Positions 770 through 59,275 of a DNA stretch of 64,000 bases are shown in pieces (within the stretch, counting starts at the first letter, position 1; each line of letters begins with the position of its first letter). A model generated the notes under the pieces. That model saw only the letters and a list, made by a program, of their open reading frames with translations, did not search any database and was not told the origin of the DNA. The DNA is from Bacteroidaceae bacterium (lineage in GTDB: Bacteria > Bacteroidota > Bacteroidia > Bacteroidales > Bacteroidaceae): assembly GCA_017965425.1 (NCBI GenBank), contig JAGCPY010000067.1, positions 186,001 through 250,000 on the forward strand. Reading direction: 5' to 3'. Position numbers and translations under genes: made by a program.

Positions 770-1152
770 AAAAAAAATCCTCAATCCCTCACCTTTTAAG
801 ACAATCACCTGTAAACAAACCTTTTACGGGTGAGGGATTGGTGAGGAATAGGTGAGGGATGGTGAGGAATAGTGAGGGATTGCATTTGTCATCATTCATT
901 GTGAGCAATTACCCGCTATAGGGCCATGCCCTTGTCTTTATCCGAATTGCAGTATGCGTGGACACATGCTGGGGGATGGTTCATCGTTAGATGCCATTTC
1001 AGTTCCCGTCATCGCATGATAACCGATTGTGGTTCAACGTCCGCGCTCAATCCCTCACCATCCCTCACCTATTCCTCACCAATCCCTCACCAATAAACAG
1101 CTGATTGCCAATCGAGTAACGAAAAAGGTGAGGGATTGAGGGATTTTTGACT
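770..1152. repeat. Repeat element A: ten-unit GGTGAGGGAT inverted repeat
   Basis: Two inverted arms (about 770-882 and 1046-1152) enclose a 163-base centre. Each arm has an outer unit facing outward (AATCCCTCACC), exactly 35 bases, then GGTGAGGGAT-type units spaced 11-11-10-10; the left arm has a fifth, degenerate unit. The outer ends read AAAAATCC(C)TCAATCCCTC, as in element D and unlike B and C. The centre (883-1045) has no recognisable gene or similarity to the centres of B, C or D. The element lies 77 bases after the stop of the GH2 gene. Arms are less alike than in element B, suggesting an older copy. Confidence 0.85.
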
Positions 1153-6870: not shown

Positions 6871-9738
6871 ATGCCTATCAGAATCAACAAAGTGACAAAG
6901 GAGTTCAGCGTCGGTTTGCAAACCCTCGTGGACTTCCTGAATAAGAAAGGCTTCGCCGATGTCGAGGCCAACCCCAATGCGACCATTACAGACGAACAAT
7001 ACGCACTGGCTCAGGCAGAGTTTAGCAAAGACAAGGACAAAGGCATCCGACCCACCATCCAACAGCCGACTACCATCCGCAAGCCAAAGGAGCGTAAAGA
7101 AACCATCGTCTTGACAGAAAGTGGCGAGGCAAAACCACTGACAGAGGTTAAAATGCCAAAAGTCGTGGGGCGCATAGACTTAGATGGAAAGGGAAAAGCC
7201 ACCGCGAAGACAGAACCATCGGCTACTGGCGAAAAACCTGTTGAAAAGAAGCCTGATGTCCAGCCTGCTACTGAAGAAGAAAAAGAACCTAAGCAGCCCA
7301 ATGATGTCGTAGAACAGTCAAAGGCAACCCCATCATCCGGTTCAGAGAACGACGTTCAGAAGGAGGAGGTCAGCCCTGTTGCTCCAGAAGCACAGCCCGT
7401 CACACAACCCAACGCAGCCCAACCCAAGAAAAAGAAGTCAACCATAGAGTTGGAAGAGGTGGATGGCGTATTCCGTGTGAAGGCTCCGTCTGAGCCACCT
7501 TTGACATTAAACATCAAAGGACATATTGACCTCGATTCCATCAACCAAAGCACCCGTCCGCCACGTGGCAAGAAACGCAAGAAAGGCAGTGCGGGCACAA
7601 ACAACACCCAGAACACTGCCGCTGGTGAAAGCCGTCGAAGCAAGCGGAAAGGGGAACGCGTGGACATCAATGCTGAAGCTGCCAAACAACAACCAACAGC
7701 CATCAACAAAGACAGCAAGAAGAGCAAAGGCGGTAGCCAGCAACCACAACCCAACCAACAGCAAAAGAACGAAGGCAAGAGCCGTAAACGTAAGAACCTG
7801 CCCAAGGAGATTCTCATTACCCCTGAACAGAGTGAGGAAGAAGTAGCCAAGCAAGTACGTGAGACTTTGGCTCGTCTAACAGCCGGTAAGAACAAGACGC
7901 TCGGTAAAGGTGCCAAATACCGTCGCGAAAAACGCGAAAATATCCGCGCTGGCTTGGAGCACGAACTTGAAGAACAGGAGAAGGAGTCAAAGATCCTAAA
8001 GCTGACAGAGTTCGTGACTGCCAACGAGCTGGCATCGATGATGAATATACCTGTGACACAGGTCATTGGAACCTGCATGAGTCTTGGTGTCATGGTCAGC
8101 ATCAACCAACGAATGGACAAAGAAACCATCGACCTCGTAGCCGACGAGTTTGGTTATCAGACCGAGTTCGTTAGTGCCGATGTCAGTGAGGCCGTCACCG
8201 AAGTAGAGGACGACGAAGCCGACCTCGTGCCACGCGCTCCCATCGTCACCGTGATGGGTCATGTTGACCACGGTAAGACTTCTCTGCTCGATTATATCCG
8301 CAAGACCAACGTTATCGCCGGTGAAGCAGGCGGCATCACGCAACACATCGGTGCCTACAACGTGAAGCTCGATGACGGACGTCACATCACATTCCTTGAT
8401 ACTCCTGGTCACGAAGCCTTTACCGCCATGCGTGCGCGTGGTGCACAAGTCACCGACGTCGCCATCATCATTATTGCTGCAGACGATGACATCATGCCTC
8501 AGACCAAGGAAGCTATCAACCACGCCGTAGCCGCTGGCGTCCCCATTGTGTTTGCCATCAACAAGATCGACAAGCCCGCTGCCAACCCCGAGAAAATCAA
8601 GGAACATCTGGCACAAATGAACTTCCTCGTCGAGGATTGGGGAGGTAAATACCAAAGTCAAGACATCAGTGCCAAGAAGGGCATGGGTGTTCCTGAACTG
8701 ATGGAAAAAGTATTGCTAGAAGCTGAGATGTTAGACCTGAAAGCCAACCCTAACCGCAAGGCTACAGGCAGCATCATTGAGTCTTCTTTGGACAAGGGAC
8801 GAGGTTATGTTGCTACAGTACTCTGCTCCAATGGTACTCTACACATGGGAGACATTCTGCTGGCTGGCACCAACTACGGACGCATCAAAGCCATGTTTAA
8901 CGAACGTGGACAGCGTATCAAGGAGATTGGTCCTGCACAAGCAGCAACTGTCCTCGGCCTGAATGGTGCTCCGCAGGCTGGTGACACCTTCCATGTAATG
9001 GACAGCGACCAAGAAGCCCGCGAGATAGCGTCCAAGCGTGAACAGCTCGCCCGCGAACAAGGCATCCGTACCCAGCACCACCTGACCCTCGACGAAATTG
9101 GACGCCGCATCGAACAGGGTGGTTTCCAAGAGCTCAACGTCATCGTGAAGGGCGACGTGGATGGATCCATCGAAGCTCTTTCCGACTCGCTCATCAAGCT
9201 CTCCACCGAGAAGATTGCCGTCAACGTCATTCACAAGGCTGTGGGTCAGATTAGCGAGAACGATGTTTCTTTGGCTGCCGCTTCAGATGCCATCATCGTG
9301 GCCTTCCAGGTTCGTCCGTCGGCACAAGCCCGTAAGGCTGCCGAACAGCAGGGCGTAGAAATTCGCACCTACAGCATCATCTACGATGCCATCGAGGAAG
9401 TCAAGGAAGCAATGGAGGGAATGCTGGCACCCGAACTCAAGGAAGAAGTCACCGCTCAGCTCGAAGTCCGTCAGGTCTTCCACATCTCCAAGGTTGGTAC
9501 CGTGGCCGGTGCATACGTCATCGACGGCAAGGTCAGCCGCACCAACAAGGCTCGTGTCATTCGCGATGGTATTGTTGTCCACACAGGTGCCATCGATGCC
9601 CTCAAACGTTTCAAGGATGATGTCAAGGAAGTTTCGACTAACTTCGAATGCGGAATCTCACTTGTCAACTACAGCGACATTCGTGAAGGTGACATGATTG
9701 AGACCTTCCAGGAGATTGAAGTCAAGGCTAAATTGTGA
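6871..9738 (+). CDS. infB: Translation initiation factor IF-2
   Basis: 955 aa GTPase that places initiator tRNA on the small subunit. An IF2 N-terminal helical module (1-50) is followed by a long, low-complexity stretch rich in K, P, Q, E (about 60-370) and a second IF2_N module (about 375-435). The G domain carries GHVDHGKT (near residue 463), DTPGHEAF and NKID. Domains II-IV run to the end, with [12 protein letters not shown]-like sequence ([12 protein letters not shown]) opening the C-terminal half. The extended linker is typical of Bacteroidetes IF-2. The stop TGA overlaps the cvpA start by one base. Confidence 0.98.
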
Positions 9739-14821: not shown

Positions 14822-14898
14822 CATTTCCTCCTAAAAAATTTAGATTTACGGTCACGACACCACTGAATCACGTGTGAACGCGAACACGCAGAGGGTGG

Positions 14899-14942
14899 AA
14901 GGTGTACACCTTCCGCTGTGAAGGTGAATATATTACCTCCCG
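14899..14942 (+). repeat. Two 22-bp tandem repeats flanking element B
   Basis: AAGGTGTACACCTTCC plus six bases at 14899-14920, and a degenerate second unit (AAGGTGAATA...) at 14921-14942. The array ends 19 bases left of element B. The core AAGGTGTACACCTT is a perfect palindrome here. Confidence 0.7.
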
Positions 14943-14961: not shown

Positions 14962-15296
14962 GTTTAGCCTCAAAAAGTCTCAATCCCTCACCTTTTCGGC
15001 TAATCGGCTGTCAGATAAGCTCTTACTGGTGAGGGAATGGTGAGGGAATGGTGAGGGATGGTGAGGGATGATGCAAAAATGCCGTTTAACCGCCTCTGGG
15101 TCAGGCGACTTCTATTTTCACTTTTTTCTTCACTGCCATCCTGCCCGTATTTCTGCCTTTTCAGCACTTTCTGAGTGACCTTTTTCACTATCCCTCACCA
15201 TCCCTCACCATTCCCTCACCATTCCCTCACCAGTAAGAGTCTATCTGACAGACAATTAGCCGAAAAGGTGAGGGATTGAGACTTTTTGAGGCTAAA
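14962..15296. repeat. Repeat element B: best-preserved ten-unit inverted repeat
   Basis: Arms at 14962-15069 and 15188-15296 are about 108 bases each and differ at about four positions; the outer 43 bases are perfectly complementary. Layout per arm: GTTTAGCCTCAAAAAGTCTC, outward unit AATCCCTCACC, 35 bases, then four units spaced 11-11-10-10. The 118-base centre (15070-15187) is T/C-rich with no gene. It lies between the helicase stop (15325) and the cyd promoter (14821), with no CDS in the 500-base gap. Confidence 0.92.
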
Positions 15297-17287: not shown

Positions 17288-17361
17288 CGCTCCAGGATGG
17301 GCTTGAACCAACGACCCCCTGATTAACAGTCAGGTGCTCTAACCAACTGAGCTACTGAAGC
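17288..17361 (-). tRNA. tRNA-Asn (anticodon GTT), copy 1
   Basis: Acceptor GCTTCAG pairs fully with CTGGAGC, D-arm GCTC...GAGC, anticodon loop CTGTTAA (GTT) and T-arm GGTTCAAGCC, which has one T-T mismatch. 74 bases; CCA is not encoded. It is identical to the copy at 17383-17456. Confidence 0.94.
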
Positions 17362-17382: not shown

Positions 17383-17456
17383 CGCTCCAGGATGGGCTTG
17401 AACCAACGACCCCCTGATTAACAGTCAGGTGCTCTAACCAACTGAGCTACTGAAGC
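17383..17456 (-). tRNA. tRNA-Asn (anticodon GTT), copy 2
   Basis: Same mature sequence as the copy at 17288-17361, 21 bases away, so the pair is a tandem duplication likely read as one transcript on the minus strand. The repeated stretch extends a few bases past each gene (CACT before, GC after). Confidence 0.94.
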
Positions 17457-30541: not shown

Positions 30542-30578
30542 AATGAACCGCTTTCAATCCAGCAGAGAAGAAGGCGGG

Positions 30579-30622
30579 AAGGTATGGACGTTCAAGGCAG
30601 AAGGTGTACACGTTCCAGGCTT
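30579..30622 (+). repeat. Two 22-bp tandem repeats flanking element C
   Basis: Units at 30579-30600 (AAGGTATGGACGTTCAAGGC...) and 30601-30622 (AAGGTGTACACGTTCCAGGC...), followed by a partly inverted third piece (ACCTACACCTT, 30628-30638). The array lies 64 bases left of element C. Confidence 0.8.
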
Positions 30623-30686: not shown

Positions 30687-30913
30687 AAAAAGTCTCAATC
30701 CCTCACCTTTTGAGACATCACACTATCTATCAGACACTTGCGGGTGAGGGATTGGTGAGGGATTGGTGAGGGATGGTGAGGGATACAAGTATAGCCATAG
30801 GTCCAACCCTTCCAAATCCCTCACCATCCCTCACCAATCCCTCACCAATCCCTCACCCGTAAACTACTGTCTCATAGAGTCTTGCCGCAAAAGGTGAGAG
30901 ATTGAGGCTTTTT
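30687..30913. repeat. Repeat element C: ten-unit inverted repeat, 31-base centre
   Basis: Arms 30687-30784 and 30816-30913. Outer ends AAAAAGTCTC on the left, with GAGGCTTTTT on the right. Each arm has the outward unit, 35 bases and four units at 11-11-10-10 spacing. The two 35-base spacers differ clearly from each other, while units are almost perfect. It lies between the EnvC-like stop (30541) and the epimerase; 30914-31089 holds nothing recognisable. Confidence 0.9.
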
Positions 30914-54789: not shown

Positions 54790-55878
54790 ATGACACCGAA
54801 ACCCTCTACATCCTCTCCTCTCCAGCACCAGCTTCCCCCCTCCCTCACAGGACGGTGCCGTGGTGGGGGCTTCTCGGGGTGGTTCTTCTTCCTCCTTCTT
54901 CTTCTCTTCCCCTCTTGTATCAAAGAAGAAACACACCCCGACACACCACAAGGAAACCTCGACGCACTATGGACAACCATCGACCGGCACTACTGTTTCC
55001 TCACCTACAAACAACAAACACTCGGCCTCGATTGGAACGCGATTCACGCACGCTACAGCCAGCGGCTGTCCGACAAGATGAACAGCAACCAGCTCTTCGA
55101 AGTCCTTGCTGAAATGATTGCCGAACTCCAAGACGGCCACGTCAACCTCTATGCCGCCCACGACATAGGACGCAACTGGAGCTGGTACGAGGACCACCCC
55201 TCCAACTTCTCGCAACAACTCCAAGACGCCTACCTCGGAACCGACTACAAAATCGCCGCCGCACTCAAGTACCGAATCCTGCCGGACAATATCGCATACC
55301 TCGTCTGCAATAGCTTTCAAACGGGACTCGGAGATGGAAATATCAGCGAAGCCCTCCACTACCTCCGCACCTGCTCAGGACTTATCCTCGACCTGCGCGA
55401 TAACAGCGGCGGAGAACTTACCAATGCACAACGACTGGCACAGCACTTCACCAACGAGCGACGCCTCGTCGGTTACATCAGCCACAAGACAGGACCGGCA
55501 CACGATGACTTTTCACAGCCAGAACCTGAATACATCGACCCGGCACAAGGGGTTCGATGGCAGAAAAACACCGTCATACTCACTAACCGACGGTGCTACA
55601 GCGCCACCAACACCTTCATCCGCGACCTCAAGGGTGCACCACGCATCACTATCCTCGGAGACCAAACCGGAGGAGGAAGCGGATTGCCATTTTCATCTGA
55701 ACTGCCAAACGGATGGAGCGTGAGATTCTCTGCATGTCCCATGTTTGACCAAGATATGCATCAAATAGAATTTGGCATTCAGCCAGATACACTCGTCAGC
55801 CTCGCACAAGAAGACTTGTCCAAAGGCATCGACACCCTCATCGAAACTGCACGCAGCATCCTGCATCACGCACAATGA
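54790..55878 (+). CDS. S41 family protease lipoprotein
   Basis: 362 aa from ATG 54790. The lipobox is FLLLLLFPSC (Cys near 40), after an unusually long n-region encoded by the GC-rich repeat (QLPPSLTGRCRGGG). The S41 core has LEDLRDNSGGE-like LILDLRDNSGGEL and the nucleophile S271 in RRCYSATNTF with GDQTGGGSGLPF. There is no PDZ domain and no clear general-base Lys at the Ctp position, as in other Bacteroidetes relatives. It is periplasmic or surface-exposed. Linked to DUF3316 upstream; followed by element D. Confidence 0.82.
   Translation: MTPKPSTSSPLQHQLPPSLTGRCRGGGFSGWFFFLLLLLFPSCIKEETHPDTPQGNLDALWTTIDRHYCFLTYKQQTLGLDWNAIHARYSQRLSDKMNSNQLFEVLAEMIAELQDGHVNLYAAHDIGRNWSWYEDHPSNFSQQLQDAYLGTDYKIAAALKYRILPDNIAYLVCNSFQTGLGDGNISEALHYLRTCSGLILDLRDNSGGELTNAQRLAQHFTNERRLVGYISHKTGPAHDDFSQPEPEYIDPAQGVRWQKNTVILTNRRCYSATNTFIRDLKGAPRITILGDQTGGGSGLPFSSELPNGWSVRFSACPMFDQDMHQIEFGIQPDTLVSLAQEDLSKGIDTLIETARSILHHAQ
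54825..54894 (+). repeat. GC-rich repeat encoding N-terminus of S41 lipoprotein
   Basis: CACCAGCTTCCCCCCTCCCT and following bases are a close copy of 53895-53964. Translated as HQLPPSLTGRCRG. Confidence 0.7.
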
Positions 55879-55887
55879 TTTTCCAAT

Positions 55888-56091
55888 AAAATCCCTCAAT
55901 CCCTCACCTTCTTTGATAATTATCTAAAGCATAATGACTTACGGGTGAGGGATAGGTGAGGGATAGGTGAGGGAAGGTGAGGTTTTTCAGATTCCCTCAC
56001 CATCCCTCACCAATTCCTCACCAAAGTCTCACCTATAAACTACTGTGCAACAGTTTGTTACGGTAAATGGTGAGGGAGTGAGGGATTTTTC
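55888..56091. repeat. Repeat element D: ten-unit inverted repeat, 8-base centre
   Basis: Arms 55888-55982 and 55991-56091. Both arms have outward unit, 35 bases, then units at 11-11-10-10 spacing; units in the right arm are degenerate (GGTGAGACTTT, GGTGAGGAATT). Outer ends AAAATCCCTCAATCCC resemble element A. It lies ten bases after the S41 stop. The stretch 56192-56360 holds nothing recognisable. Confidence 0.88.
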
Positions 56092-56146
56092 GCCAAAAAC
56101 AACATGTATCGTGTGTGCGTCGCCTGAGGCTTCACGTTCTGCCAGG

Positions 56147-56190
56147 AAGGTAAAGACGTTCCAGCCAGAAGGTGTTCACGTTCCAGCCGA
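56147..56190 (+). repeat. Two 22-bp tandem repeats flanking element D
   Basis: AAGGTAAAGACGTTCCAGCC plus two bases (56147-56168) and AAGGTGTTCACGTTCCAGCC plus two bases (56169-56190), followed by a degenerate third. They begin 55 bases right of element D. Confidence 0.8.
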
Positions 56191-56422: not shown

Positions 56423-59275
56423 ATGAAACTCTTCCTGCTTGATGCCTACGCCCTCATCTACCGTGCCTACTATGGTCTCATCAAAAACCCTCGTGTCAAC
56501 AGTCGGGGCGAGGATGTGTCAGCAATTTTCGGCTTCGTCAACACCTTGGAGGACGTGCTGGCCAAGGAAAAGCCGACACACGTAGGTGTAGCCTTTGACC
56601 CGCATGGCGGCACATTCCGCCACGAACGATACCCGCTATACAAGGCACAGCGCGAGCAGACGCCAGAGGCCATCCGCTTCGGCGTGCCCATCATCAAGGA
56701 GATTCTCGAAGCATATCGAATCCCAGTGCTTGAAGTGACGGGATTTGAAGCCGACGATGTCATTGGAACGTTGGCGGCGCAGGCAGAAAAGATGGGGATT
56801 GAGACTTACATGGTGACTCCAGACAAGGATTACGGGCAGCTGGTTTCAGAGCATGTGCGCATGTTGAAACCGAAGAACATGGGGCCGGGCTACGAGGTTC
56901 TGGGCACTGAAGAGGTATGTGCAAAATGGGGCATCGAACGGCCTGGACAGGTCGTAGATATCCTGGGGCTGATGGGCGATGCTTCGGACAACATTCCCGG
57001 ATGTCCGGGCGTGGGCGAGAAGACAGCCTCTCAGCTCATCCAGCAGTTCGGCAGCATAGAAAACTTGCTGGCGAACACCGACCAGCTGAAAGGTAAACTG
57101 AAAGAGCGTGTCACCGAGAACCGCGAACAGATTGAGCTGTCGCGCTGGCTGGCACAGATTATCACAGATGTGCCGATTACGCTGGATGTGGACGCGATGG
57201 CCTATGACGGTGGCGAGGTCGAGACGTTGGTGGCAAAGTTCGAGGCATTGGAGATGAGGAGCTTGGCGAAAAGGATCGGGGAGAGGGGGATAAGACTTGA
57301 CCCCGACGCTGTCCGTGAGAACGTCGAGAGCCCGCGGAAAGGGGAGCAACTGGATTTGTTCGCTTCGGCGGAAACGGATTCTCCCAGTCAAATGCCTATT
57401 TCTTCTGAAGATGCTGAATCCAAACCGCTTGCCAGCTACGAGCACCCACTTCCCTCGCACAAGGATGGAACCGATGCCAAGGCGCTGTATCACTTGGTTT
57501 CTTCTCCCGACGCACGTGCTGAACTTGTTCGTCTGTTGTTGTCCTCCAAAGAGGTGAGCCTTGACACGGAAACGACTTCGACGGAGGCGATGGATGCAGA
57601 GCTGGTGGGGCTGAGCTTTGCGGTGAAGGAGGGCGAGGCCTTTTATGTGCCGGTGCCAGCCAACCGCGATGAGGCTCAGGCGATTGTCGAGGAGTTCCGA
57701 GGGGTGTATGAGAACACGCGGATCCTGAAAGTGGGTCAGAACCTGAAGTATGACCTCACGGTGCTGCAGAACTACGGCATCCGCTTGGCAGCTCCTATGT
57801 TCGACACGATGATTGCACACTATGTGCTGGAGCCCGAAATGCGTCATGGCATGGATTACCTGGCGGAAGTGTATCTGCATTACAAGACAATCCATATCGA
57901 CGAACTCATCGGCAAGAAGGAACGTGGAAAGCCGCAGAAGTCGATGCGCGATGTGCCTGTTGAGGAGGTCTGCCCTTATGCGGCAGAGGATGCCGACATC
58001 ACGCTCCGGCTGAAACACGTCTTTGTGCCAATGCTTGAAGCGGCTCGAGGCACGAGCCTGTTCGAGGAGGTGGAGATGCCGCTCATGCCGGTCCTGGCCG
58101 ACATGGAACGCACGGGTGTCTGCCTTGACTCGGAAGCACTGCGTCAGGCCAGCGAGACACTGAGGTCAGAGCTGGAACAGACGGAAAAGGATATCTATGA
58201 GCTGGCAGGTGCCGAGTTCAACATCTCATCGCCGAAGCAGGTGGGTGAAGTGCTCTTTGAACGCCTCAAGCTTTTGCCCAACGCACGGAAAACAAAGACG
58301 GGCGCCTATTCCACGAATGAGGAGGTATTGCAACGCATTCGCTCAAAGCATCCTATCGTAGAAAAGATTCTTGATTATCGAGGAAAGCAGAAGCTCATCA
58401 ATACTTATCTGGAGGCCCTGCCTCGGCTGATCAATCCCCGCACAGGGCATATCCATACCAGTTTCAACCAGACGGTGGCTGCCACAGGGCGTTTGTCTTC
58501 GAGCGACCCGAACCTGCAGAACATCCCCGTGCGCACAGAGGATGGCAAGGAAATACGCAAGGCATTTGTTCCGGAACCTGGGCAGCTTTTCTTCTCTGCC
58601 GACTATTCTCAGGTGGAGTTGCGCATCATGGCTCATCTCAGTGGTGACGAAGGACTGATCGAGGACTTCCGGCTTGGCCATGACATCCACGCAGCCACAG
58701 CTGCCAAGATTTTCCATAAGCCAATGGAAGAGGTCACAAGAGAGGAACGCAGTCGTGCGAAAACGGCCAACTTCGGCATCATCTACGGCATCACTGCCTT
58801 CGGCTTGACAGAACGTCTCGGCATCAGCCGAACAGAATCCAAGGAACTCATAGACAATTATTTCAAGACCTATCCGCGTGTCCACGCATTCATGCAGGAA
58901 AGCATAGACTTTGCCCGACAGCATGGATACACCGAAACAATACTTGGACGACGTTGCTATCTGCGCGACATTAACTCAGCGAACGCCACGGTGCGCGGTT
59001 TCGCTGAGCGCAATGCCATCAATTCACCTATCCAAGGCTCTGCTGCGGACATCATCAAGCTGGCTATGGTACGCATCCACCGTCGTTTTGCCGAAGAGGG
59101 TTTGCGTTCACACATGATTCTGCAGGTGCACGACGAACTGAACTTCAGTGTCGTTCCTAAAGAACGTGACCTCGTGGAGAAAATTGTCATTAGCGAGATG
59201 GAAGGAGCCATCGACATGCGCGTGCCACTCATCGCAGATGCAGGATGGGGCCGCAATTGGCTGGAAGCTCATTGA
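56423..59275 (+). CDS. polA: DNA polymerase I
   Basis: 950 aa. Three domains in order: 5'-3' exonuclease (about 1-300, YALIYRAYYG, GFEADDVIGT, PGVGEKTA), a 3'-5' exonuclease with the acidic residues present (LDTETTS, QNLKYDLTVL, AAEDADITLRL), and the polymerase (about 560-950) with ADYSQVELRIMA (motif A), RSRAKTANFGIIYGI (motif B) and QVHDELNF (motif C). The intact exonuclease residues suggest proofreading, unlike Taq. A short linker rich in P, S, E (about 300-350) joins the halves. The next gene is convergent, six bases away. Confidence 0.97.
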   Translation: MKLFLLDAYALIYRAYYGLIKNPRVNSRGEDVSAIFGFVNTLEDVLAKEKPTHVGVAFDPHGGTFRHERYPLYKAQREQTPEAIRFGVPIIKEILEAYRIPVLEVTGFEADDVIGTLAAQAEKMGIETYMVTPDKDYGQLVSEHVRMLKPKNMGPGYEVLGTEEVCAKWGIERPGQVVDILGLMGDASDNIPGCPGVGEKTASQLIQQFGSIENLLANTDQLKGKLKERVTENREQIELSRWLAQIITDVPITLDVDAMAYDGGEVETLVAKFEALEMRSLAKRIGERGIRLDPDAVRENVESPRKGEQLDLFASAETDSPSQMPISSEDAESKPLASYEHPLPSHKDGTDAKALYHLVSSPDARAELVRLLLSSKEVSLDTETTSTEAMDAELVGLSFAVKEGEAFYVPVPANRDEAQAIVEEFRGVYENTRILKVGQNLKYDLTVLQNYGIRLAAPMFDTMIAHYVLEPEMRHGMDYLAEVYLHYKTIHIDELIGKKERGKPQKSMRDVPVEEVCPYAAEDADITLRLKHVFVPMLEAARGTSLFEEVEMPLMPVLADMERTGVCLDSEALRQASETLRSELEQTEKDIYELAGAEFNISSPKQVGEVLFERLKLLPNARKTKTGAYSTNEEVLQRIRSKHPIVEKILDYRGKQKLINTYLEALPRLINPRTGHIHTSFNQTVAATGRLSSSDPNLQNIPVRTEDGKEIRKAFVPEPGQLFFSADYSQVELRIMAHLSGDEGLIEDFRLGHDIHAATAAKIFHKPMEEVTREERSRAKTANFGIIYGITAFGLTERLGISRTESKELIDNYFKTYPRVHAFMQESIDFARQHGYTETILGRRCYLRDINSANATVRGFAERNAINSPIQGSAADIIKLAMVRIHRRFAEEGLRSHMILQVHDELNFSVVPKERDLVEKIVISEMEGAIDMRVPLIADAGWGRNWLEAH

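Follow-up and report, generated by a model that had tools for sequence, protein, structure and literature searches.

Intergenic repeats in bacteria are mostly regarded as loose, decaying relics. The ends of transposons of the Mu, Tn7 and Tn3 types carry several in-phase protein sites, and these elements display target immunity. The matS, parS and Noc-binding sites of bacterial chromosomes are single, short and dispersed. REPs are generally described as palindromes of 20–40 bp with a GTAG or CGTC tag. BrickBuilt, a MITE of Porphyromonas gingivalis (PMC4596501), occurs in 19 copies, in which a leader and a tail enclose an array of 23-nt tandem repeats.

Here we describe a repeat found in a 64,000-nucleotide stretch of DNA (‘the window’; contig JAGCPY010000067.1, positions 186,001 to 250,000) from a rumen Bacteroidales genome of 3.73 Mb in 96 contigs (assembly GCA_017965425.1), which we call G000. 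In this repeat a dyad-like motif, about ten contact units and a palindrome array outside the arms stay in register with the helix from copy to copy, and along the chromosome the copies stand well apart. A preliminary description, made from the letters of the window alone, knew of no named element of such form, and the position is the same now: Rfam at gathering score finds four tRNAs only in the whole window and gives the repeat no family match, and the portion of the literature that our search covered holds no description. The composite repeat system is real, and striking.

Copies in the window

Four copies had been placed at 770–1152, 14962–15296, 30687–30913 and 55888–56091, and reading of the sequence bears this out. 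Each arm follows one plan: an outward GGTGAG unit, a 35-bp motif (the ‘spacer’) and, in most arms, four inward GGTGAG units at intervals of one helical turn. Matches to the unit GGTGAGGGAT with up to two mismatches number 94 in the window; shuffled versions gave 52.8 ± 7.3, and 0/100 reached 94.

Copy 1 opens with an outer unit (ATCCCTCACC; 784–793, minus strand), followed on the plus strand by the left spacer with its conserved motif positions (794–828), four inner units (829–870) and a degenerate fifth unit (871–880). Its right arm, on the minus strand (1050–1136), comprises four inner units (1050–1091), spacer (1092–1126) and outer unit (1127–1136). Beyond lies a palindrome array without strand (1204–1241), two units of 22-bp period with 2 and 3 mismatches to GAAGGTGTACACCTTC. 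In copy 2 the array is on the left (14898–14935; one perfect unit and one degenerate, with 5 mismatches). The plus-strand left arm (14983–15069) has its outer unit at 14983–14992, spacer at 14993–15027 and four inner units at 15028–15069; the minus-strand right arm (15190–15276) has four inner units at 15190–15231, a spacer at 15232–15266 that matches the left one at 31/35 positions, and the outer unit at 15267–15276. Copy 3, too, has its array on the left (30578–30615; two units, 4 and 1 mismatches). Its left arm (30698–30784, plus strand) is made up of outer unit 30698–30707, spacer 30708–30742 and four inner units 30743–30784, and its right arm (30816–30902, minus strand) of four inner units 30816–30857, spacer 30858–30892 and outer unit 30893–30902. 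Copy 4 lies beyond an ORF that ends at 55878. Its left arm (55899–55985, plus strand) consists of outer unit 55899–55908, spacer 55909–55943 and four inner units 55944–55985; its right arm (55992–56078, minus strand) of four inner units 55992–56033, spacer 56034–56068 and outer unit 56069–56078. The array (56146–56183; two units, 4 and 2 mismatches) follows, upstream of the polA ORF.

The 35-base spacer claimed for all eight arms is exact in 8/8. The inner spacing had been given as 11-11-10-10: unit starts are indeed 11, 11 and 10 apart, but the fourth ‘10’ is the length of the last unit or, in copy 1, the degenerate fifth unit. The centres differ between copies, as had been said, although the quoted range of 8 to 163 was slightly off; they measure 179, 120, 31 and 6 bases, copy 1 having 179, or 169 if the fifth unit is included. 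Elsewhere in the window, two tandem tRNA genes (17288–17361 and 17383–17456) have equal Rfam scores.

Architecture of the arms

For a wider view we surveyed 801,297 bp of G000—parts or all of contigs C21, C32, C26, C61 (the window's contig), C33 and C25, picked for having listed elements. Arms were detected by their four inner units alone, with up to 5 mismatches, and spacer length was not used. The survey yielded 71 arms, forming 38 elements, of which 33 have both arms and five a single one. By extrapolation the genome holds about 177 elements (170–180). A pattern allowing any gap from 20 to 50 has 235 matches in G000; among the matches listed, the gap is 35 to the first unit, and some skip one unit, adding 11. 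A looser pattern has 341 matches, 114 of them forward, right arms being mostly matched twice.

Further copies had been proposed as the check on spacer length, and it is 35 in all 71 arms. The outer CTCACC stands at that distance exactly in 67/71 and with one mismatch in 4/71 (ties being assigned to 35), and all four GGTGAG cores are mismatch-free in 62/71. The steps between units are 11-11-10 in 63 arms, 11-11-10-10 in 3, 11-11-11-10 in 2, 11-11 in 2 and 11-11-11 in 1. Across the surveyed part of the genome the plan is rigid in spacer length, as claimed, but not in unit number, which varies in 8/71 arms. The claim that spacer length is kept while sequence is not stands in its first half only, for about a dozen spacer positions are conserved. 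The motif reads Y A N5 Y T G N6 A R N4 T T R C. In 90 distinct arms, the conserved bases are Y at −27 (88), A at −26 (86), Y at −20 (88), T at −19 (88), G at −18 (78), A at −11 (88), R at −10 (89), T at −5 (86), T at −4 (90), R at −3 (88) and C at −2 (69). It is roughly a dyad, centred at −15, with one side imperfect (C at −12 in only 37/90). Further out, the same 90 show a weak C-rich stretch near −80 to −70, a T tract from −66 to −62 and an A tract from −57 to −53; inward of the A tract come CCTCAATCCCTCACC, the spacer and the units, in that order.

Intact arms predominate. In a weight-matrix scan, using a matrix derived largely from the same 71 arms, these score at least 90 bits, one further match 49, one 15 and the rest 10 or less. 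The 49-bit match is a two-unit partner at C21:127714 and the 15-bit match a minimal form, outer-35-outer, at C26:49624. Decayed arms are nearly absent, with none between 50 and 90 bits. Between arms, unit cores diverge by 1.7%, a figure biased low because the arms compared were selected for near-intact units, versus 71% at 13 low-information spacer positions, which are saturated between G000 copies. Between elements, spacer likeness is roughly what column frequencies lead one to expect, apart from a modest surplus of related pairs (68 pairs alike at 24/35 or more, 18.6 expected).

The two spacers of one element are likewise no more similar than chance, with 16.2 matches of 35 against 16.6 expected (n = 35, near-identical arms set aside). 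Near-identical spacers occur in 6/10 elements whose arms are more than 200 bp apart and in 0/33 shorter ones (P = 3e-5). In bacteria a long perfect palindrome is unstable when its centre is short, which may be why short elements must keep their arms different.

The palindrome array

The array unit is the 16-bp palindrome GAAGGTGTACACCTTC, repeated at a period of 22 bp and usually present at least twice. At least one unit, with up to 4 mismatches to the 16-base form, lies within 250 bp of 37/38 elements; four of these have a single unit only, and chance matches to a single palindrome also occur inside genes. An outward scan from the arms, at 5 mismatches or fewer, finds a unit in 33/38 elements (15 on the left, 14 on the right, 4 on both sides). 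The five elements lacking an outward array are the five single-arm elements, several of which carry one inward instead. Of 37 measured distances between the centre of a palindrome and the outer CTCACC, 10 are 79 bp, the most frequent value.

Another 16 arrays of at least two units stand away from elements. One adjoins the minimal form in C26 (49450–49660; L102, about 9450–9660), in which two outer units flank the 35-bp interval without inner units. Among 139 genomes of the genus this array was found only in G000 (0/138 others). In a smaller scan of palindrome arrays with periods of 17 to 30, period 22 outnumbered every other, in G000 (11 loci in 192,900 bp) as well as elsewhere in the genus (3 loci in 336,806 bp). 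Intergenic arrays of this period, each with a sequence specific to its locus, lie in other genomes of the genus at L125:11417–11536, L129:12048–12138 and L131:18455–18524, and the first two begin directly after a stop codon.

Helical phasing

The separation of the two arms clusters at a period of 10.05 bp (R = 0.59, P = 1e-4 versus jitter; n = 39 of 43 pairs, those less than 240 bp apart), and that of array and arm at a period of 10.0 (P = 0.0016, n = 34 of 37). Steps of ~10 bp are what an assembly on double-stranded DNA needs and an RNA loop does not. The spacer motif, moreover, is identical rather than complementary in the two arms, and within an arm only neighbouring positions covary, long-range covariation there being absent, which suits protein contact better than base pairing. 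Of the two possibilities raised at the outset, cooperative protein binding is supported by these steps and by the same-sense motif. The other, a long RNA hairpin, is weakened: the missing long-range covariation speaks against RNA pairing inside an arm, and between arms the spacers show no sign of pairing. One sign in its favour is the junction of units 2 and 3 (position 20), where left and right arms are the same in 94% versus 60% expected (n = 35). This agreement, within 829–870 and 1050–1091 of the window and the equivalent places elsewhere, occurs despite disagreeing spacers.

Chromosomal spacing and gene context

Neighbouring elements are separated by 32 gaps with a mean of 21.7 kb. None is shorter than 7.85 kb measured between starts (7.74 kb between centres), a minimum that random intergenic placement reached in 0/20,000 trials; such placement produced about 10 gaps below 7.8 kb. 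The coefficient of variation of the gaps is 0.50 (P = 2e-4 versus random intergenic placement), and a hard minimum with otherwise random placement explains it (P = 0.14). Target immunity would yield the same evenness.

By home-made gene calls, which missed at least one gene (the Y1 gene, below), none of the 35 placeable elements overlaps a gene; the remaining 3/38 sit at the edges of contig parts. Elements tend to lie just behind genes. Of the 35, 13 lie between convergent genes, 16 between genes on the same strand and 6 between divergent genes. In same-strand cases the element is nearer the 3' end of the upstream gene in 14/16, and among large gaps, convergent and divergent ones differ in how often they hold an element (P = 0.001).

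Relatives, copying and mobility

Arms of the G000 type occur in none of 138 other genomes of the genus, and arms of a ‘cousin’ element in two, the rumen genomes G113 (RUI084) and G010 (RUI002), in a few copies. The cousin has a 36-base spacer and steps of 12-11, and its centre contains a 22-bp-period array of GTCTCAC-type palindromes; it is the same two components in different sequence and placing. Three cousin copies from these genomes share a common centre (84–87% identity) at different loci, and the surrounding pieces are mostly unrelated, which indicates that an ancestral element moved.

Some G000 copies are related across arms, flank and array; most others are alike mainly at constrained positions. 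A sister of at least 80% identity over at least 150 bp was found for 7/52 sampled elements, a sample of about 30% of the estimated total in which some sisters may be missing. Copies arose, at least in part, by copying. In six related pairs, differences number 29/436 in units, 68/278 in spacers and 73/573 in flank plus centre. After copying, then, units are held back, changing less than flank plus centre (P = 0.0015), and spacers change at about twice the rate of their surroundings (P = 3e-5); these P values are optimistic because the pairs have members in common. As spacers change fast, their saturation is a poor clock of age, which weakens the argument that the copies are old. No target-site duplication was consistent among 30 paired elements: no repeat common to the two flanks stood clearly out from permuted partners (6 permutations per length), although old insertions may have lost one.

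The nearest relatives examined have 77–78% nucleotide identity to G000 over the matched part of polA. The gene to the left of copy 4 was absent near polA in the pieces from other genomes, and no empty site was seen there. Apparent relatives in two yak-rumen assemblies, RGIG10247 (Bacteroidales bacterium) and RGIG10252 (Prevotella sp.), were set aside, their contigs JAGCYV010000072.1 (L059) and JAGCZA010000120.1 (L057) being 100% identical to G000 contigs C63 and C93 over the 4,201 and 8,000 bases compared. These identities mark G000 as a rumen Bacteroidales and suggest binning cross-over between metagenome-assembled genomes.

A Y1 (RAYT-like) transposase gene was considered as a helper. It lies in C21 at 58693–59031, within a locus (58440–59150; L073:18440–19150) where palindromes of the GCCCTGAAAGGGC and CCCAGGGC types stand on either side of it, and a repeat element occurs some 340 bp beyond it on one side only. 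A RAYT/REP system was dropped, since the gene is flanked by palindromes of its own. A second, weaker Y1 match, in C49, has no arm within its 3.2-kb locus, and no autonomous partner was found among the Y1 transposases of G000.

Several look-alikes were rejected. Among the matches listed, Pseudonocardia, two Streptomyces, Nonomuraea, Kitasatospora, an Anaerolineales MAG and G071 carry GGTGAG repeats that are arranged differently, judged by eye, as do G453 and G543 from a phylum sample, judged from the matched stretch alone. The unrelated actinobacterial and Anaerolineales stretches L060, L062, L063, L064, L068 and L069, and the viral contig L070, have CTCACC/GGTGAG units stepping by 11 bp and, about 40 bp off, inverted copies of them; these may be sites for DNA-binding proteins arranged head to tail. 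L070 has three CTCACC units spaced by 11 bp and an inverted unit 37 bases on, but its units are different. Searches of viral contigs with the array and with the arm plus outer box, of plasmid and phage records with the cousin, and of plasmid records with window copy 2 gave no match. When the plan was sought with units of any other sequence in 336,806 bp from 12 genomes of the genus, one locus came up, without a fixed-spacer arm: in G003 (L128:9434–9559), two tandems of 11-bp units (GTAAATGCGGA), inverted relative to each other and situated downstream of a reading frame. The pattern has 7 matches in that genome.

What the repeat may be

The reading we prefer, and hold a little short of probable, is that every copy, MITE-like in origin and now maintained, is a composite site on double-stranded DNA at which a large nucleoprotein complex would assemble. 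One putative protein would bind the in-phase GGTGAG units, a putative dimer the 35-bp spacer motif and another putative dimer the palindromes. The complex might bend or loop the DNA near gene 3' ends and act as a road-block, or as a boundary between adjacent stretches of chromosome. From the sequence comparisons we infer that individual copies are kept intact by selection and may now serve the host. Since neither arms of this type nor the array were seen in the other genomes examined from the genus, no general chromosome function can rest on them. More tentatively, and on balance improbably, a once-mobile element may now form a grid of sites for protein assembly along the whole chromosome, spaced at about 22 kb on average and with a strict lower limit close to 8 kb, by which the chromosome of one bacterial lineage is divided up at gene ends; the 35-bp spacers would diversify faster than the DNA around them, with length, helical phase and contact bases held fixed.

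The repeat may instead still be a selfish, non-autonomous MITE-like element whose ends are stacked transposase-binding sites and whose exclusion zone is target immunity within about 8 kb, an account that is doubtful but to be taken seriously. Units would then be intact because only intact copies move and dead ones are quickly lost. The cousin copies with one centre at different loci speak for it, as do the G000 copies related across arms, flank and array, the solo arms and the sufficiency of a minimum distance, as immunity would give. It is harder to square with the want of a consistent target-site duplication, with the failure to find a partner among the Y1 transposases, and with the combination of few sisters (in a sample of about 30% of the total) and almost no decayed arms. 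Host-function and selfish readings leave similar spacing, so spacing does not separate them.

A device acting in RNA, namely a very long hairpin by which transcripts of the preceding genes are ended or stabilized, would account for inverted arms with outward T tracts, placement after genes and the left-right agreement where units 2 and 3 meet. Over all 40 pairs the arms match at the outermost positions, −51 and −50, too, a signal lost once near-identical arms are dropped. Spacers that neither pair nor covary, a motif repeated in the same sense, centre lengths in ~10-bp steps and an array phased to the arm all count against it, and we think it unlikely. Least probable, and very much so, is a site-specific recombination site, with the spacer motif as core, the tandem units as arm-type sites and an invertible centre. 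In-phase tandem sites at 10–11 bp beside a dyad-like motif, in inverted arms, might recall the core and arm-type layout of the lambda and CTnDOT att sites, and the near-identical spacers confined to long elements are as arm exchange or conversion would give; in most elements, however, the two putative cores differ, and many centres are very short. If the preferred reading, a maintained site with a host function, is right, the repeat is a transposon-derived, genome-wide architectural site in a bacterium, with dozens of natural replicates from which rules of cooperative assembly might be drawn. If it is selfish, we have a family of target-immune MITEs whose ends are built in an unusual way.

Comparison with described systems

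Like MITEs in general, the repeat has terminal inverted repeats without coding capacity, around centres mostly of 6–180 bases. BrickBuilt (PMC4596501) resembles it in being a dispersed, intergenic Bacteroidales element with inverted-repeat ends, a narrow host range and tandem repeats close to two turns of the helix in length (23 nt, against 22 in the present repeat). The latter differs in its two many-unit inverted arms, its fixed 35-bp motif, its array of period 22 outside the arms rather than of 23 nt between leader and tail, its minimum distance and its copy number (about 177, by extrapolation).

The REP/BIME/REPIN sequences and their RAYTs, the subject of PMC2817692 and PMC3733652, are similar in comprising more than 100 intergenic palindromic copies, in facing pairs, near gene ends. 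The arms described here have a ten-unit plan, their consensus (90 arms) shows no tagged palindrome of 20–40 bp, and at neither Y1 match is the gene flanked by the element.

Mu, Tn7 and Tn3-type ends share with the repeat several in-phase protein sites and an exclusion zone around each copy; mutual exclusion over kilobases, as in target-immune transposons, is seen here in that no gap among 32 is below 7.7 kb. The repeat differs from these in showing no target duplication, few close sisters in the sample and, in the search for Y1 genes, no transposase of its own. With matS, parS and the Noc-binding sites it has in common many maintained sites per chromosome for a sequence-specific protein, if our reading is correct. 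Those are single short sites; the present ones are composites of roughly 200–700 bp that keep an exclusion distance and are restricted, among the genomes examined, to one species.
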